Below are positions 7,875-29,245 of a stretch of 29,473 nucleotides of DNA, piece after piece (position 1 is the stretch's first letter; each line of letters opens with the position of its first letter). The notes beneath the pieces were generated by a model, which saw nothing but the letters and a program-made list of their open reading frames with translations, had not been told where the DNA came from and did no database searches. The translations under genes were made by a program, and so were the position numbers. The DNA is taken from positions 1 to 29,473 of IMG/VR virus record IMGVR_UViG_3300033141_001633; one strand, written 5' to 3'. The stretch is from a virus.

Positions 7875-8866
7875 GCAATAAGGATCTGTTTTACAGAGCG
7901 GTGGAGTTTAACGAGGCGGTAGACACAGACGCACGGGAAGCGGAACTGTCGTTTTCCTCTGAAGAGCCGGTCAAACGTTGGTTTGGGGATGAGGTTTTGC
8001 TTCATGGGCAGGAGAATGTTGACCTGTCTTATCTTAGGGCTGTTGGGAGTGTAATTTACGGGCATGATCCGAGTGATATTCAAAACATTATAGGCCCGAT
8101 TAAAGAGGCCCGTCTTTATAACCGCAGGGGTATTGCAAAGATAGGCTTCGACAACGACGAGAAGGCTACTCTTGCGATGCTTAAGGCTGGTTCTAAGAGT
8201 CTCAGGGGTGTGAGTGTAGGTTATACGATTCAAAAAGCGATACAGCTTGAGGTGGGCGATGAGTGGATCAACCCTGAAACGAATAGGACGTATTCCGGGC
8301 CTGCTTTGATCGCTACCCGCTGGACGCCCCTTGAAATAACATTGACACCGATCCCGGCAGATATGTCGGTTGGTATAGGTAGGGAGGCCACGAGGTCCCT
8401 CGATGGCATTGAGATTGAACTAAATCAAACCCACAGCATGGAGGACAATGAAATGGATGAGAAGGAAGTTAAACGACTGATAGAGGCCGAGAGGGAGCGA
8501 TTTGCGGCTGAAATCGAGGCCATGGCCGATAAAGTGGCTGAGAGAATCCAGGAGCAGGCTAAACCCAAGTTTCGGATGTCTCTTGAGGAGTTCCAAGATC
8601 TTATGGGCAGGGCAGCTGCCATCAACCAGTCTGCACAGGTTAAGGTCGCGGAGTTAGTAGCTGAAGGCAAGAGGGCCGAGGATATTAAGGATAGTTTGCT
8701 TGAACTTGCTACTACCAAGCGTGATGCTCAGGACAAGGGAGATGGCCCTGCACCGAATGATCCGCCTGTTCAGGATGTTTCTGGCAATATCAGATCGTTT
8801 AAGCAGATAGAGGATGATGACTTTTTCGCAGGTCTGAGTAATCCTTCGGCCTTTGCGATAAACTAA
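7871..8866 (+). CDS. prohead protease (S78-like) fused to scaffold
   Basis: A 331-residue protein. Residues 1-175 resemble HK97-type S78 prohead proteases: catalytic histidine H65 in IYGHDPSD, nucleophile S115 in SLRGVSVGY, and acidic E155 in PLEITLTPIPAD. Residues 195-270 are a charged coiled-coil (EAERERFAAEIEAMADK), typical of scaffold, and a linker rich in D, G and P follows. The protease matures capsid components and degrades the scaffold. The surrounding terminase, portal and gpW are lambda-like, where a ClpP-like S49 protease would be usual, so this is a mosaic head module. An internal start for free scaffold is listed separately. Confidence 0.85.
   Translation: MSNKDLFYRAVEFNEAVDTDAREAELSFSSEEPVKRWFGDEVLLHGQENVDLSYLRAVGSVIYGHDPSDIQNIIGPIKEARLYNRRGIAKIGFDNDEKATLAMLKAGSKSLRGVSVGYTIQKAIQLEVGDEWINPETNRTYSGPALIATRWTPLEITLTPIPADMSVGIGREATRSLDGIEIELNQTHSMEDNEMDEKEVKRLIEAERERFAAEIEAMADKVAERIQEQAKPKFRMSLEEFQDLMGRAAAINQSAQVKVAELVAEGKRAEDIKDSLLELATTKRDAQDKGDGPAPNDPPVQDVSGNIRSFKQIEDDDFFAGLSNPSAFAIN
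8453..8866 (+). CDS. internal in-frame start: scaffold protein
   Basis: Inside the protease gene GGAGGA (8440-8445) is followed by seven bases and an in-frame ATG at 8453, residue 195 of the long protein. Translation from here gives a 137-residue, mostly coiled-coil product beginning MDEKEVKRLIEAERERF. The arrangement copies lambda C/Nu3, where the scaffold is made from the 3' part of the protease gene. The site is seen directly; use of it is inferred. Confidence 0.6.
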   Translation: MDEKEVKRLIEAERERFAAEIEAMADKVAERIQEQAKPKFRMSLEEFQDLMGRAAAINQSAQVKVAELVAEGKRAEDIKDSLLELATTKRDAQDKGDGPAPNDPPVQDVSGNIRSFKQIEDDDFFAGLSNPSAFAIN

Positions 8867-11015: not shown

Positions 11016-11663
11016 ATGTTCAAATGGATGAGAAAGCATTTCGTGCTAACCGGTGTCCTGATAATTGCTACGGTGGCTATTGCCTATGCGGGTACGGTAT
11101 CAATCAAGCCGTATGGCATAGCCACGCCTTATTGGTATGGGTACTCCAGCGGGGCTAAAAGTTCGTACTACTTAGGATTCCCGACGCTGACTGGCAATGA
11201 TACTGTAACGGGCATTGCCACGTCGCAGACCATTACCAATAAGACAATTTCAGGAGCCTCTAATACAATAAGCAATATCGGCAATTCAAGCCTGTCTGCG
11301 CCTAACTCGTACTTCACTGTTGCCCTGAGTGTGAACGGTCAGGAGTCCGCCACCGTTGATCCTGCGGCTGTGTTTCAGATGCCATTTGCGGCTACACTGG
11401 TTGAAGTAAGTGTTGGGGCCAGGGATATCGACACTGGGGATGGGAATGAGACATACACGGTCGATCTTGAGGAATCCGGAACGTCAGTGCTTGATTCGGC
11501 CATTTCCATTACCGCTGATGCAACTCCTGTTGTTGGGACGATCAGCGATGATAGCATCGCTGACAATGCTAAACTGGAGGTTGTGCTAACTTTGGGAGGC
11601 ACGTCTCCTGCAATTGATGACTTAACCGTGTTGCTTACTTTCAAGGTCGCGCATACCAGCTAA
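11016..11663 (+). CDS. exported-looking beta-rich protein after the capsid gene
   Basis: A 215-residue protein with a clear signal peptide: KWMRK, a hydrophobic stretch from V10 to I22, and an AYA site cleaved after A25. Residues 55-95 have a fibre-like repeat style (TGIATSQTITNKTISGASN), the kind found in head or tail fibres. Residues 100-215 are predicted beta, ending LTVLLTFKVAHTS. It has no recognised family and sits where a head fibre or head completion gene would be expected. A Sec signal is odd for something assembled in the cytoplasm. GAGGTG lies upstream of the ATG. Confidence 0.6.
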   Translation: MFKWMRKHFVLTGVLIIATVAIAYAGTVSIKPYGIATPYWYGYSSGAKSSYYLGFPTLTGNDTVTGIATSQTITNKTISGASNTISNIGNSSLSAPNSYFTVALSVNGQESATVDPAAVFQMPFAATLVEVSVGARDIDTGDGNETYTVDLEESGTSVLDSAISITADATPVVGTISDDSIADNAKLEVVLTLGGTSPAIDDLTVLLTFKVAHTS

Positions 11664-11679
11664 AATAAAGGAGGGCATT

Positions 11680-12132
11680 ATGAAGAAACTTTTATCCGCC
11701 CTGCTTTTCGCTTGTTTGCTCACGCCCACCGGGGCGTGGGCAGCAGGCACGATAACGGAAACCTGGACAGCGATCGGGGATAGAGATTACGTCCTGAAGT
11801 TTACTTGTGTAGCGGATGCCTCAGATGGGTCATTTCCTTCCCACGAGACTGTCAAGGCTGTGGATGGATGGGTTTACCTTATTACGACTGACCCGGGATC
11901 ACCGGCCCCTACCGATGACTACGACATAGTTATCAAGGACAGTGAGGGGGTTGATATCTCCGGTGGCATGCTGGCGAACAGAGATACCAGCAATTCAGAG
12001 CAGGTAATCCCAAAGATCAATAATAACTATGTGTCCAGGCGGGTTTACGGCCCATTGACAATTGAGATAACAAGCAACTCGACCAATAGCGCATTGGTTG
12101 TTGTATCGGTCTATTTCAACAGAGGGCCATGA
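11680..12132 (+). CDS. exported-looking protein, 150 aa
   Basis: AAAGGAGGG precedes the ATG. The N-terminus is a textbook signal peptide: KK, hydrophobic LLSALLFACLL, then AWA cleaved after A21. The mature part has aromatic and beta-rich segments (GWVYLITTDPGSPAPTDDYD, then SEQVIPKINNNY, and TIEITSNSTNSALVVVSVYF at the end). Proteins with this pattern occur in phage head-neck regions without known function. Its stop codon overlaps the next start (ATGA), so it belongs to the same operon as the neck genes. Confidence 0.6.
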   Translation: MKKLLSALLFACLLTPTGAWAAGTITETWTAIGDRDYVLKFTCVADASDGSFPSHETVKAVDGWVYLITTDPGSPAPTDDYDIVIKDSEGVDISGGMLANRDTSNSEQVIPKINNNYVSRRVYGPLTIEITSNSTNSALVVVSVYFNRGP

Positions 12133-14145: not shown

Positions 14146-14727
14146 ATGTCTAAGTTCACGAATCGTTCCGGGAAGTTAAGATTATATGATGGCACTGCAA
14201 CGCCGTTTTACTTGGAATTGGATTTTGATCTCGGGGACTTCTCTGGCCCGATGGGTCAACCCAAAGTTGAGGAGTTGCTAATTCTCGACAGAAACACCGC
14301 TACAGAAGATATGCACTACATAACGGGCGGCGACGATGCTTTGATGGCCCCCGTGACTATCACTTTCGGCGCAAATCTTGTTGACAAGACTCAATGCATT
14401 TATTTGCTTGACTGGATTGATGTGATGAACGGCGGACTGTCGGCCACGATCAATGGCAACACGATTGTTTCTACACAGGGAGACACTCAGCGGGATGGAA
14501 GCAATAATAACCCCACCTTTGCTGATTCAGGCAAGTTAACTTGTAATATCGAATACCGCCTTAATGGCAGTACGGATCGAGTCTGGCACTATAACGAAGT
14601 ATGGCTTCCTGCTGACCAGCAACAGATCAGCGAGGCAGAGGACGGCGTAACGATCTCCTTAAATGGTCAGGTATACGGTACGATTGTCAGAGATACGGCA
14701 TTTACGAGCGGTAGTTCGATAGAATAG
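14146..14727 (+). CDS. tail tube protein, short form
   Basis: A 193-residue protein with GAGGAGG upstream. It is the likely main tail tube subunit: right length, strong ribosome site, immediately before the chaperone genes. It shares GKLRLYDG, GPMGQPKVEELLILDRN, HYITGGDD and PADQQQISEAEDGV with the longer gene just upstream. A 24-base exact DNA match links the two (14028-14051 and 14612-14635), so the duplication is fairly recent or has undergone gene conversion. Confidence 0.75.
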   Translation: MSKFTNRSGKLRLYDGTATPFYLELDFDLGDFSGPMGQPKVEELLILDRNTATEDMHYITGGDDALMAPVTITFGANLVDKTQCIYLLDWIDVMNGGLSATINGNTIVSTQGDTQRDGSNNNPTFADSGKLTCNIEYRLNGSTDRVWHYNEVWLPADQQQISEAEDGVTISLNGQVYGTIVRDTAFTSGSSIE

Positions 14728-18088: not shown

Positions 18089-18742
18089 ATGGCTATTCAG
18101 ATAACATACGATTCAAAAACCGTTGATCTTATTATGGCAGAGAGGGCCTTGGAGCCGAACTATTTACACGATTACCGCCGGAATATGGCAGGGAATGGCG
18201 CAGCGGAGACTATCAATTTACATGGCTTTCAAGAACATACCTTTGAGTTATATTTCACTGAATCAACTTATGAAGCCCTGATTGCTTGGTGGTCGTGGGC
18301 AAGGCAGGGAAATCCATGGTCATTTGCATTTGATAGCAACAAGGCGGTTGAGACCACCCTCTCAATGGCTGCTTCTGCGGATGAGGTATTAATTAACCTG
18401 ACTCAGACAGCCGGTTTCAGTTCAGGGGATGTGTGTTTTATCCAATCGGCAAGGGATGACAAATATGAAATCGTTACGATAGATACAGTAGGCGTTGGAG
18501 ACGTCTATATCGTTGATGCTGATGGCACATACATTGTTGATGCTGATGGCACTTACCTGGTCAGCGGCGAGGTGGGGACAGCGGTATCAATTACGTCGGC
18601 TCTTAAATTCTCATATGACGCAGGAGATTATTTTCGGCATTGGAATTACTGGCCTGAAGTATTCAGCCTTGATACTGATTTCAAACCATTGAAAAACGGT
18701 GACTATTATAAACATTTAATTAGATTTGCGGTGTTAAATTGA
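18089..18742 (+). CDS. distal tail / minor tail protein, copy 2
   Basis: A 217-residue paralog of the preceding gene: it shares AETINLHGFQ, TESTYEALIAWWSWARQGN and DYFRHWNYWPEVFSLDTDF. It is about 25 residues longer, mainly in the middle, where a 24-base tandem repeat encodes DADGTYIVDADGTYLV. It could form a hetero-oligomeric ring with copy 1 or be a specialised version. Start ATG 18089 directly follows the previous TAA, with only GGAAA nearby. Confidence 0.6.
   Translation: MAIQITYDSKTVDLIMAERALEPNYLHDYRRNMAGNGAAETINLHGFQEHTFELYFTESTYEALIAWWSWARQGNPWSFAFDSNKAVETTLSMAASADEVLINLTQTAGFSSGDVCFIQSARDDKYEIVTIDTVGVGDVYIVDADGTYIVDADGTYLVSGEVGTAVSITSALKFSYDAGDYFRHWNYWPEVFSLDTDFKPLKNGDYYKHLIRFAVLN
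18512..18559 (+). repeat. 24-base tandem repeat, two copies
   Basis: Units beginning at 18512 and 18536 each read gttgatgctgatggcac, followed by a diverged atac/ttac end. The second differs from the first at only a few positions. It duplicates the peptide VDADGTYI in the distal-tail paralog and looks like recent slippage in a surface loop. Confidence 0.8.
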
Positions 18743-21700
18743 AAAAATATACGGCGTTTTTACTTTTAGTCATATTATCAGTTTGTAACGCTTACGGTGA
18801 GTCAGAACCTCCACCAAAAACCATTGCAGATTTTGACGCTGTGTCTCCAATGGCTGACGCCGATATGTTTTTGATATGGGATACCAGTGCGGGAGTCACC
18901 AAGAATGTTACGAAGGATGTGCTGATGTCATCCCCTGGTGCTATCGGGGATGGAACGCCGAGTACCGGGACTTTTACGTCTCTATCATTATCTACGCCTC
19001 TAACACATGAAAATGGAGGGTTGGAATTAGATGTTTCTGCGTTTGACGGGATATTGAAAATAAGTGGAGGAGCTACATCGGAAATTGCTGATAATTCATC
19101 AAATTGGAATACGGCTTATTCCGACAGGCTCAAGTGGGATGGCGGCTCGACAGGTCTCGATGCTGCCACAGGCCGGACTTCGTTGGGGTTGGGTTCCCTG
19201 GCCATACTTAATTCTATTGACATCTCGGAGAATACCAACCTTGCTGTAACAGCCCCTATTATCTTAACAGACGACACGCTCTCGGTGGCTACCAACTCCG
19301 ATACGTCCGCCGGCGTAGTGTTATCTGGATCTGGGCAGGCTAATAAAGTCTGGAAAACCGACGGGTCGGGTGTTCCTGGCTGGAGAGATGACTCTACAGG
19401 GGGAACTCCATCCTTTGATTCTATAACTACTGGAACTAACACAACGGCCACCATGACAGTTGGTGCTGGTGGGACTCTTACTTATACATCAACAGGAGTA
19501 GTAAATGCTTCACAATTTCAGGGAGTGACAACCGTTGATTCGACCGAGTTTGGTTATCTTGATGGTGTAACAAGTGCGATACAGACACAGTTGAATGGGA
19601 AGCAGGCTACGGGTAACTACATAACCGATCTGACTGGCGATGTTACAGCTTCCGGCCCTGGAAGCGTGGCGGCCACCATTGCCAACGATGCCGTGACCTA
19701 CGCCAAGATGCAGAACGTCTCGGCTACTGATAAACTCTTAGGCCGGTCAAGTGCCGGTGCGGGAGATATTGAAGAGATTGCCTGCACTGCCGCCGGTCGA
19801 GCTCTCCTTGACGATGCTGACGCCTCGGCTCAAAGGACCACCTTGGGTCTCGGTTCGCTCGCTACTCAAAGCACTGTGGACAACTCTGATTGGTCAGGCG
19901 CAGACCTGGCAATGGCAAATGGTGGGACCGGGGCATCCTTATCCGATCCTGACGCAGACAGGATTATGTTCTGGGATGAGTCTGCCGAGGCTATTACATG
20001 GCTTACAGTGGGGGCCAACCTAACCGTGACGGACACAACGATATCTGCCACAGACAACGACACAACCTATAGTGCGGGCACAGCCCTGGACCTCTCCGGG
20101 ACCACGTTCAATGTGGATCTTAGTGAACTTGCCACTTCTACTACTGACGGTGACGGTGACTATTTCGTCGTGGTGGATGCCGCCAATGCTCAAAAGAAAC
20201 TCACCAAGGCCAATATCAATCTCAGTGGTTTCAATAACGACGCTGGCTGGACTTCTAATACGGGTGATATAACCGGAGTTACAGCCGGAGATGGATTAAC
20301 AGGGGGCGGTGCATCTGGGGATGTTACCCTAAACATAGGTAGCAGCTCTACAATAACAGTAAACGCTGATGATATTGAAGTTGCAGTAGATAGTATAGGC
20401 GATACGCAACTGGCCTACAATACAGGCCAACACCTCACCACTGCAAGTAGTCCCACGTTTGCCGGCATGACGGTGACCGGTAATGCAACCATAGGCGACG
20501 GCACGAACGATGTCACATTGACCTTTGATGGCGGTAATGACGGTGTTATCAAGTGGATGGAGGATGAGAAGTATTTCCAGGGGAGTTTTAATGTTTTTAA
20601 TCCAGCAATGTACAGTGGCACGGATACTGAGAAGATCCAAGCCGCCATTGATGATGCGGAGGCCGTTGGTGGGACAGTATACATCCCACGGGATTCAGAT
20701 GGTGAGTGGACACTTACGGATGCAGACGAGGACGGTGCATGCTTGGTAGTCGAGGCAGGGATCACTATACGAGGTGATGGTTCGGTTGCCACAGACACGG
20801 CCTCCCAGTTGGTCAGTACTGATACCACAGCGCACATATTAAAGATCAAGTCGGACAAGCCTGTTATGGTCAGGGACCTTTGGTTAGAGTTCGACCGTAA
20901 TGGCTCCGATCCAGATTCAGGTATGTGTTGTATTTATGTGACAGACTACGATAACGATGATGGGAATACGAGATCGCAGTTTGAGAACCTTGCGTTATAC
21001 AATGGTGATTATGGTCTACATTTCTATCGAGCACGTTGGTGGCAAGTGAAAGACTCTTTTATTGCGTACAATAATACTTACGGAATTTTGGTAGAGAACT
21101 GGAATAGCACTGATAGTGGCGCAAATACAATACAGGGGAATTACATAGTTACGGATGGCAGCAGTCATGCAGGTATTATGTACAGGACCCCAAGTGGGGT
21201 TCGTATATTAAATAACCATATTGCGGGTTTGGGTGTAGGCAATTCAGCTGATTATGATATCCACCTCGATGCGACAAGCTCAGGGGACGGCTATACAACG
21301 ATAAACTCCTGGATAATTTTAGGTAATAATTTAGAAGGTTTTCCTATAAGGGCTCTTTATATCACTACCAACACCGCAAGTGTTGTGGGCGGTATTATCG
21401 CCAATAATAAGTTTGATTCTGGGATGGAATTATTGGGCGATGCAACTTATAAAATACAGAATACTTTGATTATCGGTAACCGATTCATACATCCCACTGG
21501 CACTGGTTCACACAACGAGACGCTTAAATGTACGTATACTGATAACCTTACGCTTTCCGGCAATCAATTTATTGCGAATGGGCTATCAACAATAGGCATA
21601 AATTTAGACTCCTCAGTTACTGACACACGTATTACCCCAAGTAATACTTTTGACGGCTACACCACTGACGTAGGTGGTGCTGGTTCACCGATAACCAGTT

Positions 21701-22542
21701 ATGTGTATAACTCATTAGTGGCTAAATCTGCGGTAGTTGCCCAAAGCCAGTTGAGAGCCGGGGTGGACGACGACACGCCTGGGCTTATTATGGCCTATGG
21801 GGGTGGGGATACAGAACAGGGTGGCCGGATAAATTTACATATGGCATCCGACCACGATACGAGCAACGAGTGCTGGTTTGTAGACGTGGATACTGAGGAT
21901 CTACGCTTCGGCGTAACTCCTGATGGTGTTATGGCGGAACTAACACAAACAGGCGACTGGACTACTTACGGCGATTCCCTCACCTTCGGCGACGGCTCTG
22001 GAACACAGACCCTGACCTTCAACGGAACCACAGACGGCACAATAGCGTGGGATGATTCGAACACCGAGTTTGATCTTGACTATGACCTCCATTTGTCCAA
22101 CGCCGGCGATGTTACTCTAACCCTGGAGGCTGATACCGACAATACTACAGAATCGGACAACCCCAGTTTGGTTTTTTCTCAAGATGGGGGAGCGGTTACG
22201 GCCAGTATAGGGCTGATTGAATCGGGGAATGCTTTCAAGATAGCTCACAATTTTGATGCGGCTGATATTGAAATTGCTACAACCGGCACGGGAAGAGTGT
22301 ATTTCGACGTCTACCGCATTGGAATCAAAAACGCCTCTCCAGCGTATACTTTGGATGTGACGGGCACTGCCCGTTTTACAGGGGCGGTAACGACTGATGA
22401 TCTAACAATCTCAGGCGGTGATTTGTACCTAACAGGAAAGAGTGCCGCCGGCTCGGCCACGGCTGGGGCTATTTATTTTGACACAGACGATAACCACTTT
22501 TATGGCTACAATGGTTCAGCATGGGTGCAATTAGACAACTAA
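18739..22542 (+). CDS. tailspike / tail fibre with beta-helix and signal peptide
   Basis: A 1267-residue protein starting at TTG 18739 (overlapping the previous TGA). The first 20 residues resemble a signal peptide: MKKY, hydrophobic FLLLVILSV, then NAYG. Residues 60-560 are repetitive fibre segments (GDGTPSTGTFTSLSLSTP, TTLGLGSLATQSTVD, LTGGGASGDVTLNI). Residues about 618-990 resemble a pectate-lyase-type right-handed beta-helix, starting FNPAMYSGTDTEKIQAAIDD and GGTVYIPRDSDG, then many N-rich coils (IIGNRFI, LSGNQFIA). The IGDGTNDVTLTFDG motif near 583 recurs as FGDGSGTQTLTFNG near 1079. The end AGAIYFDTDDNHFYGYNG is typical of phage fibres. It probably binds or degrades host surface polysaccharide; catalytic residues cannot be assigned. 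Confidence 0.8.
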   Translation: MKKYTAFLLLVILSVCNAYGESEPPPKTIADFDAVSPMADADMFLIWDTSAGVTKNVTKDVLMSSPGAIGDGTPSTGTFTSLSLSTPLTHENGGLELDVSAFDGILKISGGATSEIADNSSNWNTAYSDRLKWDGGSTGLDAATGRTSLGLGSLAILNSIDISENTNLAVTAPIILTDDTLSVATNSDTSAGVVLSGSGQANKVWKTDGSGVPGWRDDSTGGTPSFDSITTGTNTTATMTVGAGGTLTYTSTGVVNASQFQGVTTVDSTEFGYLDGVTSAIQTQLNGKQATGNYITDLTGDVTASGPGSVAATIANDAVTYAKMQNVSATDKLLGRSSAGAGDIEEIACTAAGRALLDDADASAQRTTLGLGSLATQSTVDNSDWSGADLAMANGGTGASLSDPDADRIMFWDESAEAITWLTVGANLTVTDTTISATDNDTTYSAGTALDLSGTTFNVDLSELATSTTDGDGDYFVVVDAANAQKKLTKANINLSGFNNDAGWTSNTGDITGVTAGDGLTGGGASGDVTLNIGSSSTITVNADDIEVAVDSIGDTQLAYNTGQHLTTASSPTFAGMTVTGNATIGDGTNDVTLTFDGGNDGVIKWMEDEKYFQGSFNVFNPAMYSGTDTEKIQAAIDDAEAVGGTVYIPRDSDGEWTLTDADEDGACLVVEAGITIRGDGSVATDTASQLVSTDTTAHILKIKSDKPVMVRDLWLEFDRNGSDPDSGMCCIYVTDYDNDDGNTRSQFENLALYNGDYGLHFYRARWWQVKDSFIAYNNTYGILVENWNSTDSGANTIQGNYIVTDGSSHAGIMYRTPSGVRILNNHIAGLGVGNSADYDIHLDATSSGDGYTTINSWIILGNNLEGFPIRALYITTNTASVVGGIIANNKFDSGMELLGDATYKIQNTLIIGNRFIHPTGTGSHNETLKCTYTDNLTLSGNQFIANGLSTIGINLDSSVTDTRITPSNTFDGYTTDVGGAGSPITSYVYNSLVAKSAVVAQSQLRAGVDDDTPGLIMAYGGGDTEQGGRINLHMASDHDTSNECWFVDVDTEDLRFGVTPDGVMAELTQTGDWTTYGDSLTFGDGSGTQTLTFNGTTDGTIAWDDSNTEFDLDYDLHLSNAGDVTLTLEADTDNTTESDNPSLVFSQDGGAVTASIGLIESGNAFKIAHNFDAADIEIATTGTGRVYFDVYRIGIKNASPAYTLDVTGTARFTGAVTTDDLTISGGDLYLTGKSAAGSATAGAIYFDTDDNHFYGYNGSAWVQLDN

Positions 22543-22559: not shown

Positions 22560-22802
22560 ATGAAGAAGGTACTTTTATTTCTGGGCGTGTTCTTATTCCT
22601 CTTAACCCCGAGTTCCTGGGCTGACTACACCCTCAAAACCAGAGGCGATGTCGAAAAGGCACTCCAACGGTTTTTCCAGGAAGAACAGGGGAATAGGCTG
22701 TCAACTTACTCCATGAGGGGGTTGATGATGGAGATCAACAGGGTGTTCACAGAGAACATCAAACGACCTGAGCCAAAGGACGATGACTCTATCAAGAAAT
22801 AG
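22560..22802 (+). CDS. small exported protein, 80 aa
   Basis: The ATG at 22560 follows AAGGAG by seven bases; it lies inside a longer frame that begins in the fibre gene without a ribosome site. The product has KK, a hydrophobic run VLLFLGVFLFLL, and SWA cleaved after A21. The mature part is about 59 residues, helical and charged (TRGDVEKALQRFFQEEQGN, then MRGLMMEINRVF). It may be a periplasmic partner or chaperone of the neighbouring fibre proteins; no family is recognised. Overlaps the next gene by 20 bases. Confidence 0.6.
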   Translation: MKKVLLFLGVFLFLLTPSSWADYTLKTRGDVEKALQRFFQEEQGNRLSTYSMRGLMMEINRVFTENIKRPEPKDDDSIKK

Positions 22803-24841: not shown

Positions 24842-25630
24842 ATGGCGACTTGGGATATATCAGCACTTAGGACAATTTTATCCACTGAGACCGATGCTGA
24901 CAGTCCGGTAAGCGAGGAGTTGATGAGCCAGTTCCGGGAAAATTGGGAAGCCCTGGTCCTTCTGCTATTGGGGACGGGGATTACCGGAACTGTTACATCA
25001 ATTACTGAGACAGTATTGACTGACACAGCGCAATCATACGATGCAGATACGCATATCAACCATACTCTACTCATAACGTCTGGCGATGCTATTGGCAATA
25101 TGTATACCATTGACGATAACGATGCCACAACATTGACTTGTACCGGCGACACAATGGTAACTGATGGAGTAGAGGTGGGCGATACATTTGCAATCCTGTA
25201 CGATATGAAGGTCAACCAGGATGGACACGACCACGACGGAGATAATAGCAAAGAGGCCGTTTTTGCAAAAGGCCGGGTTGTGGCGTTCTCGGCGTTGTAC
25301 CCGACGAAGGAATATAGCAATACCGGTACAAGTTGGACCACGGTTGCTACATTGGGGCTTTACGTTCCCGCCACGGCCAATAAACTATATGCGGAATACA
25401 GCCTGAAAGCAGAATCTCTTACAACGGCATCGGTAAGGATAAATGAGACTACCGCAGGGAATTCGTCTGGATTAGCAACGGCAAGCACATCTTATACCTG
25501 GGTATCTGAAGACTCATTGGATATGTCCGGGGTCTCAGAGGGCTGGACTACGATAAATATCCAGCTCCGTAATTCAGGAGCGTCAGGCACATCCTATCTT
25601 GATGGGTTAACCTTAGTATGGGGACCATAA
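24842..25630 (+). CDS. minor tail / fibre-associated protein
   Basis: A 262-residue protein with GGGAGG before ATG. The N-terminus (TWDISALRTILSTETDADSP) is followed by a helix with ENWEALVLLLLG. Then come a beta-rich middle containing NMYTIDDNDATTLTCTGDTM and an HDHDGDNSK loop that could bind metal, and a beta-rich end (TSWTTVATLGLYVPATANKL). It lies between the hub-like gene and the DGR target, so it is likely an adaptor or collar for the fibre. No family is recognised. Confidence 0.55.
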   Translation: MATWDISALRTILSTETDADSPVSEELMSQFRENWEALVLLLLGTGITGTVTSITETVLTDTAQSYDADTHINHTLLITSGDAIGNMYTIDDNDATTLTCTGDTMVTDGVEVGDTFAILYDMKVNQDGHDHDGDNSKEAVFAKGRVVAFSALYPTKEYSNTGTSWTTVATLGLYVPATANKLYAEYSLKAESLTTASVRINETTAGNSSGLATASTSYTWVSEDSLDMSGVSEGWTTINIQLRNSGASGTSYLDGLTLVWGP

Positions 25631-25641
25631 TGGAGGATATA

Positions 25642-28600
25642 ATGAAACGATTTATAGTGATTACCGCTTTTTTACTATGCCTGATTCCCGGTGTCGGGAA
25701 TGCTGGAGAACCGAAAACGTGGGGGTACGATTGGGAGGCCATCTTTGGAGATCTGGGTGGTGTTACTACATCAGGAACACCAGTTGATAATGATTACGCT
25801 AAGTTTACTGATGAGGACACCGTGGAGGGGCGCAGTTATGACGAGGTTAAAAGTGACCTCGGATTAGGTGAGACCGATAGTCCCACATTTGACAACCTGA
25901 CCATAACGTCTGCAATTACTGAGGGGGGTAATGCAGTCCCCAACAGTACCGACAACCTTTCATTTTTTGCATCGACTACCTCAGCACAGTTATCAGGGGT
26001 CTTGAGCGATGAGACCGGATCAGGTCTTGCGGTCTTTGCAACTTCGCCTTCCTTAACGACTCCCGACATCGGCACTCCATCAGCAGGAACGCTTACTAAT
26101 TGTACAGGGCTTCCAATAGACACCGGAGTTTCAGGTTTGGGGGCAGGGGTAGCCACATTTCTCGGAACTCCGTCCAGCGGGAATTTAGCGACTGCTGTTA
26201 CGGATGAAACAGGTTCGGGCGCATTGGTGTTCGGCACATCTCCGTCGCTTACAACCCCTGCCCTGGGAGCTGCAACTGCGGATTCTCTTGATGCGGCCGG
26301 GCAAATAGACGCAGGCACACTAACTATAAATTCAGGATCAATCACCGATACCAGCGGGGCGATCTCATTTGGGGATGAAAACCTATCAACCACCGGGACC
26401 TTAAGCGCAGCGACCACCGACCTGACAAGTGTTACCGACGACAACATCCCCAAAATGGGCGCAAGTGGGTTTGAAGACTCGGCTCTATCAGACGTCGGCA
26501 GTGGAGTTGTGGCATATGATAGCAGTAGAAGTATAACCGATATGTACCACTTGGCGGACAAGAGATATGTGGATGAAGCGGTTACGGCATTGGGAGCAAG
26601 ATATTACATGCTTAACACTGCTTCTGGAGAATCGGACTACAAATTATGCTCTGCTTCCGCTTCGGGCGGTGGGGAACAAAGTGTTAGCGGGGCAAGTCTG
26701 TCAGACGATGATTATGTCCAAGGCTGGATCGCTCCGAACACTAATGAACCGGACAAGTTGCTACTCGGCGTATACAACTGGCGGATCTATGCTGAGAAAA
26801 CTGGAGGCACAGAAACACTGAGGCTGTACTGGAAACTTGTTGAGAGAAAGAATGATGACTCAGAGGTTGTGATTGCAACCTCTGTTGTTAGTAACGAGAT
26901 AACGAGCGGCAAGAACTCGTATATTATTCCCCTGACACTATCGGCCGATCATGATATAGCAAGCGATAGTTATGTTGTTGGTAAGATCTATGCCGATGTG
27001 TCCGGGAGCGGATCGGCCCCGAGCGTCACGTTGTACTATGAGGGCGATTCGCACTCGCACTGGCAAATACCGGTAAACACAGAGATATTTAATAACATCT
27101 ATGTCAACATAGATGGCGACACGATGACGGGGGTCTTAACCGTCAACCCCGATGGCACTAATGAGACATTCCAGGTCAACGATGGCTCGGTGGATTTCAC
27201 AGACGGCAACGCTGGTACAACTGGCACGCTAACCGTAGATGCGTCAGGGAATTGGTCGTATAATAAGAATATAGTGTCAACCGGCAACGTAGCAGGCGCG
27301 ACGTATGGGTCGGATGGGTCAATCTCGGATGCGGAATTGCTTAAAATAGACAACAGTCCGTCCACGACTGATATTGCCATGCTTGAACTTGCTACCAATG
27401 CAGAAGTGGCGGCGTTTACGGATGAGACCAGAGCTGTTACCCCTGAAGGTCTTGGTTATGCAATGGCCGGAGTGTTGGCCTATGGAGTAGAGTGGGACGA
27501 GGATGAAGCCAGCCCTACTTTGACCCGTACAGGAGCTTTAGCGGGAATAGCAGCAGGGGAGAGTCCAGGTGATGTTGTATTGCCCATACAGGCGTCTATG
27601 GTGCGTGTTATATTGGCCGATGATGGGTCTGAGGTATATGAACTCTGTCCTACGGATTCAACAAAAAAAGCTGATTGTTCAACCGCCTCTAACCTGGACG
27701 GCACGGACGGTCAGGTTATGGTGCGCATTGACAGGTTCGCTTACCTATACACCTACGATGCCGCAACTAATGTACACCACTGGAGCATATCAAGTGTGCT
27801 CTTACCGGGCTATGAATGGCACCCGGCGTTTTATAAAGACGGTGAATGGGTAGAGCATAGATACATCGGGGCCTACGAGGGTGTGGGATATGACGATAGT
27901 ACATCAGCTTATTTTGATGGTGATGATCCAGACGATAACCCGGCAACCAATTGGCCTGGGGGCACAGCAATAGACACAGCCAATGACAAGCTCGGTTCCG
28001 TAAGTGGCTATGCTCCTTTGGCGAATGAGACCAGGGCAGAGTTCAGAGCTATTGCCTCAAATCGTGGAGCTGGCTGGAGACAGCAGGACTTCTATCTGGT
28101 GAGTGCTATTCAGTTACTCTATCTCGTGGAATACGCATCGTTTTACAGTCAAGATGTTATTGGAATGGGCCGGACAGAATTGACCGGCGGAACCTGGGCA
28201 AAAGACAATTATATAGGCGTCACGGGCAAATCGAACAGTGACGGCAATGCAACTGCTAATACCGGCGGGGATACTAATGATGCTTACATGAGCTACAGAG
28301 GTATTGAGAACTTTTATGGCAATATTTGGAAGTGGGTAGATGGATTTAATATCAATAACAACATTCCTTATGTCTGCAACAATGAAGCGAATTATGCGGA
28401 GGATACGGATACTAATTACTCCAGGTTAGAAGATACCGGCGGAAGTGGGATAACGTTGCATAACGGTGATGGTTACCAAACCACCCTGGAGCAGACGAAA
28501 GGAGGCTTTTTACCAAGTGCGGTTGGCGGAAGTAGTTCGACATATATCACGGATTACTATTATCAAGATACGGGATGGCGGGTGGTGAAGTTTGGTGGTC

Positions 28601-28698
28601 CTGCGCATGTTACGTCTGCGGCGGGGTTTTTTTGTTGGTCTTTGGCTAATTCCGGTACTTATGATCACGTGACTATTGGTTCCCGGATTGCTTACTAA
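25642..28698 (+). CDS. fibre-like DGR target with C-type-lectin/FGE-like end and signal peptide
   Basis: A 1018-residue protein. The ATG at 25642 has GGAGG five bases upstream; an in-frame GTG/ATG further upstream does not. Residues 1-21 are a Sec signal peptide: KR, hydrophobic FIVITAFLLCLI, GNA cleaved after A21. Residues 60-230 are phage-fibre repeats (LSDETGSGLAVFATSPSL recurs as TDETGSGALVFGTSPSL). A beta region follows. The last ~300 residues resemble the formylglycine-enzyme/C-type-lectin fold used by DGR variable proteins: RYIGAYEG, YGNIWKWVDGFN, DTGWRVVKFGG and the closing IGSRIAY. No catalytic role is expected; the end is a ligand-binding surface. Confidence 0.85.
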   Translation: MKRFIVITAFLLCLIPGVGNAGEPKTWGYDWEAIFGDLGGVTTSGTPVDNDYAKFTDEDTVEGRSYDEVKSDLGLGETDSPTFDNLTITSAITEGGNAVPNSTDNLSFFASTTSAQLSGVLSDETGSGLAVFATSPSLTTPDIGTPSAGTLTNCTGLPIDTGVSGLGAGVATFLGTPSSGNLATAVTDETGSGALVFGTSPSLTTPALGAATADSLDAAGQIDAGTLTINSGSITDTSGAISFGDENLSTTGTLSAATTDLTSVTDDNIPKMGASGFEDSALSDVGSGVVAYDSSRSITDMYHLADKRYVDEAVTALGARYYMLNTASGESDYKLCSASASGGGEQSVSGASLSDDDYVQGWIAPNTNEPDKLLLGVYNWRIYAEKTGGTETLRLYWKLVERKNDDSEVVIATSVVSNEITSGKNSYIIPLTLSADHDIASDSYVVGKIYADVSGSGSAPSVTLYYEGDSHSHWQIPVNTEIFNNIYVNIDGDTMTGVLTVNPDGTNETFQVNDGSVDFTDGNAGTTGTLTVDASGNWSYNKNIVSTGNVAGATYGSDGSISDAELLKIDNSPSTTDIAMLELATNAEVAAFTDETRAVTPEGLGYAMAGVLAYGVEWDEDEASPTLTRTGALAGIAAGESPGDVVLPIQASMVRVILADDGSEVYELCPTDSTKKADCSTASNLDGTDGQVMVRIDRFAYLYTYDAATNVHHWSISSVLLPGYEWHPAFYKDGEWVEHRYIGAYEGVGYDDSTSAYFDGDDPDDNPATNWPGGTAIDTANDKLGSVSGYAPLANETRAEFRAIASNRGAGWRQQDFYLVSAIQLLYLVEYASFYSQDVIGMGRTELTGGTWAKDNYIGVTGKSNSDGNATANTGGDTNDAYMSYRGIENFYGNIWKWVDGFNINNNIPYVCNNEANYAEDTDTNYSRLEDTGGSGITLHNGDGYQTTLEQTKGGFLPSAVGGSSSTYITDYYYQDTGWRVVKFGGPAHVTSAAGFFCWSLANSGTYDHVTIGSRIAY
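28576..28698 (+). other. DGR variable region (VR), approximate limits
   Basis: This covers residues 979-1018, WRVVKFGG to the stop. Between 28591 and 28686 only about 10 of 96 bases are A on the coding strand, while G and T dominate. That is what adenine-specific mutagenic homing leaves. The codons at P987-S992, C998-A1002 and S1004-T1011 are the likely diversified sites; conserved GG, AGFF and IGSR positions frame them. The true edges need the template repeat, which is not in the window. Confidence 0.75.
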
Positions 28699-28759
28699 TT
28701 CAAATAATTTAACAGGGTTATTATGTTTCAGCAGGTAGCTAAACTCAGGAGGTCTAAAC

Positions 28760-29245
28760 ATGACAAAATTAATCACAATAATCACAGTACTAATATTTCT
28801 GATCCCAGCATCAGCATTAGCGGCAGCCAAAACAGCAGAGTCTAAAACCTCGCCACCGGTTATCCAGAAGATTGCACCAGGAATGCACTACTATAATTAC
28901 AACATTCAAGAAATTCAGAAAGATCCAGACGGTGATGGGCCATTGGAGACGGAGACTTTTTATCAGTATAACTATGTTGTGATCAAAGACAAACTGACAA
29001 AGCTGAAAGTCCTGGATGCCATAGCAGAGGCAGAGTCTTCTACAAGTACAGCAGATATTGAGAATGTAGCTACGCACAGAAGCGAGGCCATGAACAAGCT
29101 CGCTGAAATATCAGCTATGAGCTACTCACAGATTGACACACATATTGACGATACGTTTAGTGGGTTATCTACGGCACAGAGGAATAGCTTAAAGAAGCTC
29201 TATAAAGCTGTGTTGGCATTGATCAAGAATATGGATCTTGAGTAG
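28760..29245 (+). CDS. exported protein downstream of the DGR target
   Basis: A 161-residue protein with AGGAGG before the ATG. The signal peptide is hydrophobic LITIITVLIFLI, then ALA cleaved after A21. The mature part contains MHYYNYNIQEIQKDPDGDGP, then a helical C-terminal half (SYSQIDTHIDDTFSGLST, LKKLYKAVLALIKNMD). The helical end resembles an assembly or coiled-coil domain. I do not recognise it as the usual DGR accessory protein Avd, which lacks a signal peptide. It is a candidate partner of the variable fibre. Confidence 0.6.
   Translation: MTKLITIITVLIFLIPASALAAAKTAESKTSPPVIQKIAPGMHYYNYNIQEIQKDPDGDGPLETETFYQYNYVVIKDKLTKLKVLDAIAEAESSTSTADIENVATHRSEAMNKLAEISAMSYSQIDTHIDDTFSGLSTAQRNSLKKLYKAVLALIKNMDLE

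Follow-up and report, generated by a model that had tools for sequence, protein, structure and literature searches.

The window, i.e., the whole stretch of DNA analysed, is one entire linear viral record of 29473 bases in which end repeats are absent. ParB-like/DNA-methyltransferase-related and radical-SAM genes are followed by the terminase, portal, head, connector and tape-measure genes and then by the tail and fibre genes, and the window features for which positions from 11016 onwards are given below lie on the + strand. The radical-SAM protein (609–1949), encoded just upstream of the terminase genes, contains a Radical_SAM_N2 domain and has no PHROG match, its B12-binding match being weak and below the Pfam cut-off.

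The gene at 25642–28698 encodes a tail fibre of 1018 amino acids, probably an orphaned DGR target. Its ORF opens at 25618, but the GGAGG ribosome-binding site fits ATG 25642 instead, being placed 5 nt upstream of it, which bears out the start chosen in an earlier reading made from the sequence alone (hereafter the sequence-only reading). Both position and homology are those of a tail fibre: terminase, portal and tape-measure genes lie upstream and the C-terminal part of the protein is covered by PHROG 5302 “tail protein” (E 8.4e-83). The gene is followed, after a gap of 61 nt, by a small gene (28760–29245; 161 aa, phrog_11557-like), here called the partner, which carries a signal peptide of its own and in the relatives is conserved and normally comes next after the reverse transcriptase (RT). 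Pfam searches of fibre and partner gave nothing above cut-off, a PDB sequence search gave no significant match and the predicted fold of the partner has no match in the PDB; that the partner is a chaperone or accessory protein is a guess.

Between the signal peptide and the C-terminal domain the fibre has a shaft (25705–27468) of repeated GTPSSGNL/ETGSG motifs, matching PHROG 6002 “virion structural protein” (3.7e-9). These repeats recur with 60–69% identity in virion-region proteins of the cultured Pseudomonas phage PfAn1 and of podoviruses, proteins that are without a signal peptide.

The C-terminal domain (27469–28695), modelled by AlphaFold2 from an alignment of 50 relatives (mean pLDDT 91.9, pTM 0.94), finds as its top PDB match in Foldseek the variable protein TaqVP (5vf4; E 1.9e-10, prob 1.00), followed by five Mtd variants (E 5.8e-3 to 0.16). 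The fibre thus has the C-type-lectin fold with a C-terminal variable region (VR) that characterizes DGR variable proteins, as the sequence-only reading had proposed; the length of ~300 residues given there has to be corrected, the domain comprising ~409 aa.

Variable region and loss of the DGR cassette

The VR (28576–28695) is A-poor. From the composition of the gene 31.8 A would be expected in its last 120 nt, which contain 14 (binomial P 6e-5); the 100-nt windows poorest in A across the entire fibre gene fall within these 120 nt, so that the depletion noticed from the letters alone is real.

The DGR ancestry of the fibre emerges from its relatives, collected from viral contigs (designated here by L numbers), in which the template repeat (TR) was sought as an ungapped repeat following the fibre gene, on identity alone and with no use made of adenine. 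Such a repeat was found at 60 loci, and 1151 of the 1246 TR/VR mismatches (92.4%) fall on TR adenines, 18 being at sites where it is the VR that has A; an RT lies downstream of the fibre at 56 of 76 scorable loci. The concentration of mismatches at TR adenines is that expected of a DGR variable protein, and the assignment of the fibre to a family of DGR targets that works, or worked, like Mtd and TaqVP is supported. In L007 the RT-17 RNA (RF03020) sits between TR and RT.

The VR of the window carries A at 7 of the 24 sites (29%) where the TRs of relatives have A, the same as the 29.7% of TR-A sites seen in 53 intact TR/VR pairs, and at 2 of 68 non-A sites, as compared to 13/68 and 12/68 in the older orphans L072 and L080. 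Judged by these two classes of sites it still looks like a freshly diversified sequence. Compared with the TR of L126, it differs at 25 of 34 TR-A sites but at no more than 24 of the remaining 78 (p 6e-5).

Within the record, which is a fragment, no RVT_1 match was found anywhere, and instead of an RT the partner directly follows the fibre. A whole-window repeat search and an A-directed TR search found no complete TR in the window, and an exact search of viral contigs for a TR with the 18-nt VR piece TCTGCGGCGGGGTTTTTT gave no match. What is left of the TR, which in a complete DGR is near-identical to the VR save for the adenines, is a stump made up of its first ~20 nt (28729–28748); together with the DGR leader it forms the segment AGGGTTATTATGTTTCAGCAGGTAGCTAAACTCAG (28714–28748), identified by alignment to L126 and also to L075 and L040. 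The local alignment score of this segment with the intact L126 is 46, the maximum of 1000 shuffles being 25. The stump is followed by the deletion junction and the ribosome-binding site of the partner, AGGAGGTCTAAAC (28747–28759), found likewise before the partner in L126 and L123. In the closest homologues of the partner (L122, L123, L126 and L074) the RT is still in front of it. The alignment points to a deletion that began inside the TR, ended at the partner's ribosome-binding site and removed the remaining template and the RT; since the two pieces overlap in a shared “AG”, short-homology recombination is the simplest history.

With no more than a stump of the template left and the RT-bearing stretch lost, this copy has probably ceased to be diversified in cis. 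The fibre would then be a target without its element and, barring an RT in the part of the genome beyond the fragment, is probably frozen. Adenine-directed hypermutation, which the sequence-only reading attributed to this gene, therefore holds for the phage family and probably no longer acts in cis on the present copy; the companion expectation that RT and TR would simply lie further downstream has to be abandoned, the TR being a stump, the RT being absent from the record and the partner following directly. Both the truncation and the absence are visible in the contig and go beyond what that reading stated.

Other losses occur among the relatives, L003 having kept a TR without an RT and L066 having a truncated TR. 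In L003 fibre and TR are flanked by identical direct repeats (at 8050 and 12501), each longer than 60 nt, which may be the scar of a recombination tied to RT loss. L002 carries between fibre and partner (~11219–11290) an apparent RT-17 RNA fragment, CCTTGCCTCTTGGCAAAA, by a deletion distinct from that of the window. The starts of the contigs L123, L124 and L126 lie within the RT, the VR or at the partner, where breaks would be expected if assemblies fail at hypervariable DGRs. Homing-endonuclease-like ORFs (NUMOD/HNH-like by eye) adjoin fibre or DGR in L001 (7911–8159) and L007 (2972–3790).

Predicted signal peptides on the fibre and its neighbours

The fibre begins with a predicted Sec signal peptide, MKRFIVITAFLLCLIPGVGNA (25642–25704), with cleavage predicted before GEPK. 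Read across this site, the n-region is positive and the core hydrophobic, and both a helix breaker and an A cleavage context are present. Signal peptides were assigned at all loci by a rule of our own, not by SignalP, demanding a positive n-region, an uncharged hydrophobic 9-mer and a small-x-small motif, i.e., the n-/h-/c-region pattern of a signal peptidase I substrate, which the fibre displays. The one false call of this rule in the window is the radical-SAM gene at 609, and L031, scored as having a signal peptide, equally resembles a membrane anchor.

Homologues occur with and without this element. In the first set it is present in 14 of 73 fibre tree rows with a closed 5′ end, and the trait has undergone at least 10 changes on the fibre tree. 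The near-identical fibres of L040 (none) and L041 (signal peptide) differ by a pure N-terminal addition. The L040 gene (4879–6351) has an RT downstream, and no RT was found for that of L041 (9914–11446). A signal peptide coexists with a downstream RT in nine distinct contigs, L007, L008, L071, L074, L155, L160, L170, L182 and L151/L153, the last two, apparently one phage in two contigs, being counted once.

Two further properties accompany the signal peptides. Directly behind the hydrophobic core a small-x-A motif is found in 44 of 50 genes of signal-peptide contigs, 29.1 being expected by shuffling, as compared to 19 of 37 (17.4 expected) in controls. Furthermore, the C-terminal domain of the window fibre contains a cysteine pair (TGT 27646 and TGT 27676; 27646–27678), a candidate disulfide whose two members occur together in signal-peptide fibres only: in 5 of 14 of these and in none of 60 others, the second set having it in 1 of 10 as against 0 of 29. 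The total cysteine count is weakly higher in signal-peptide fibres (p 0.03), the specific pair being the clearer signal; it suggests folding in an oxidising compartment.

Within the partner family, signal peptides take the form of a 20–25-residue extension (longer in L059 and L060) before the start of the untagged homologues. In the first set both genes are tagged, i.e., endowed with a signal peptide, in 7 cases, the fibre only in 1, the partner only in 0 and neither in 50; the Fisher value for this co-occurrence (2.7e-8) is optimistic, the sequences being related, and the independent tree contrasts, 3 to 5 in number and each concordant or neutral, remain below significance. The corresponding figures for the second set are 2, 2, 0 and 11, where both rows with only the fibre tagged appear to come from a single phage represented by two contigs. 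Altogether, a tagged fibre with an untagged partner is found three times, in L026, L151 and L153, of which the last two are apparently one phage.

The neighbours of tagged fibres are tagged as well (23 of 59 adjoining genes as against 5 of 262 by other fibres; p 1e-14, again optimistic for related sequences), and runs of at least four signal-peptide genes occur in L041, L059, L060 and L090. In L059 (2350–4032 and 4438–6129), and likewise in L060, tandem paralogous DGR-family fibres, both tagged, are followed by a tagged partner. In the window itself signal peptides are predicted on a large fibre/spike gene (18739–22542) with a probable TTG start overlapping the upstream stop, the start codon being uncertain; on a small fibre-module gene (22560–22802), by its N-terminal pattern; and on two genes located between the head and connector genes, at 11016–11663, whose homologues in L094 and L101 are tagged too, and at 11680–12132, also by N-terminal pattern. 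The Sec signal peptide at the fibre start, already claimed in the sequence-only reading, is borne out by the n/h/c pattern under our own rule, by its nature as an N-terminal addition with respect to homologues and by its tagged neighbours. By these sequence comparisons it is very probably real; it is also unusual, phage DGR proteins being described as devoid of such peptides (PMC6199706). Sec targeting of both fibre and partner is strongly inferred.

As to the hosts, L074, 49 kb long and carrying genes for integrase, terminase, portal, head and tape measure, is also present in a deltaproteobacterial MAG. When 395 genomes from the phylum to which the L017 MAG belongs were searched for prophages, one weak partial match was obtained besides that MAG itself. 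An int-alpA RNA (RF02996) at 14553–14627 of L005 suggests a temperate phage.

Proposed export of the fibre and comparison with known systems

Fold, DGR ancestry and deletion scar being shown computationally, what could be the route followed by the fibre? The reading that we favor, with a probability of about 0.5 for its joint form, is that of a receptor-binding fibre whose C-type-lectin tip would have been diversified by a DGR until the deletion froze one variant, and which, like the partner and other peripheral virion proteins, would be made as a Sec precursor and then cross the inner membrane. Folding of the fibre would take place in the periplasm, where in this subgroup the tip domain would probably acquire a disulfide, and exported fibres would most likely join the virions when lysis mixes the compartments; attachment at or after lysis is what we infer. 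The more general proposition, that some tailed phages export peripheral virion proteins (fibres, partner and some head-region proteins) via the host Sec machinery and fit them outside the cytoplasm, signal peptides being gained and lost repeatedly in modular fashion also on actively DGR-diversified fibres, is put forward more tentatively.

The sequence-only reading had instead envisaged a phage-encoded variable adhesin displayed on, or secreted from, the host cell. An exported adhesin or decoy of the infected or lysogenic host, foreign to the virion, is in line with the typical occurrence of signal peptides on cellular, surface-displayed DGR targets (PMC8144416) and with the presence of a signal-peptide fibre in the temperate contig L074. 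We nevertheless regard it as unlikely: close untagged homologues occupy the same place in tail modules (e.g., in Methanosarcina virus MetMV), shaft and PHROG assignment are of the tail-fibre type, and the tags on the fibre-module neighbours and on the two head-region genes (11016 and 11680) would be left without explanation. Display in particular is weakened, since both a lipobox and a later membrane anchor were looked for in the fibre and none was found; the protein may yet be secreted. The occurrence of similar N-termini on several proteins of one virus could also mean that these are uncleaved docking or membrane-anchoring peptides of virion proteins. This seems distinctly improbable in view of the small-x-A enrichment right behind the core in signal-peptide contigs and not in controls, of the fact that the extension stops exactly at the start of the homologues, and of the restriction of the cysteine pair to tagged fibres, which suggests an oxidising compartment.

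As to the frozen state of the VR, diversification could continue in trans from a TR and RT in another part of the genome or in the host, given that the contig is a fragment, that remote DGR targets are known (PMC8144416) and that the VR has kept its A-poor signature at non-A sites, unlike the decayed L072 and L080. However, the TR is cut to ~20 nt, the RT is missing between fibre and partner, and the agreement of the VR with the TR consensus at non-A sites is 0.60 as against 0.71 to 0.84 in intact pairs, lower as expected after template loss; continued diversification is accordingly held to be rather improbable. Finally, that an ordinary fibre should have acquired hydrophobic start and base composition by coincidence is hardly conceivable, since there are homologues equipped with TR and RT, and the fold match, the mismatch bias and the stump score speak against it as well.

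If the favored reading of a Sec-exported, periplasm-folded fibre holds, some tailed phages may route their receptor-binding fibres through the secretion machinery of the host, as the tags on fibre and neighbours hint. The cytoplasm is assumed to be the place where the fibres of tailed phages are assembled, and no tailed phage is known to fit exported fibres to cytoplasmic virions. The same fibre family has members that carry a signal peptide and members that do not, the partner often agreeing with the fibre in this respect, and at least nine tagged contigs keep the RT; since one family offers both states, the place of fibre maturation is directly testable. It follows that a signal peptide cannot serve to label a DGR target “cellular”. 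The deletion scar, in turn, represents a clear case of DGR loss with a surviving target.

The Hankyphage survey, which covers phage DGR targets, describes phage DGR proteins as having neither signal peptides nor transmembrane regions (PMC6199706), and a global DGR survey names these as features of cellular targets (PMC8144416); our literature search, with most subscription papers outside its reach, found no precedent for signal peptides on phage fibres or for the export of tailed-phage fibres. The C-terminal domain is homologous, with 24–31% identity, to that of the tail-collar DGR fibres of crAss-like and gut phages (e.g., crAssphage LMMB, PMC7290462). The tail-fibre homologues compared in annotated phage records, those of MetMV and S-EIVl, are without a signal peptide, unlike the window fibre. 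The best structural match, TaqVP of a Thermus aquaticus prophage DGR (PDB 5vf4; PMC6328139), is likewise phage-borne with a C-terminal VR. Identity to it is very low (14%), and the window fibre differs in its long shaft, in its signal peptide and in the deletion of its cassette. Mtd of Bordetella phage BPP-1 (PDB 1yu0-1yu4) is not known to carry a signal peptide and is the target of an active DGR, whereas the window fibre has a signal peptide and has lost TR and RT. The two share the C-type-lectin fold, a C-terminal VR and, presumably, a receptor-binding role in the phage. Surface-displayed bacterial DGR proteins, Legionella LdtA and Treponema TvpA, are exported targets likewise; they are cell-encoded, and the Legionella one is described as a lipoprotein, whereas the window fibre lies in a phage tail module and has no lipobox. 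New here is the signal peptide on a phage DGR-family fibre, fold and DGR ancestry being of an already known type.
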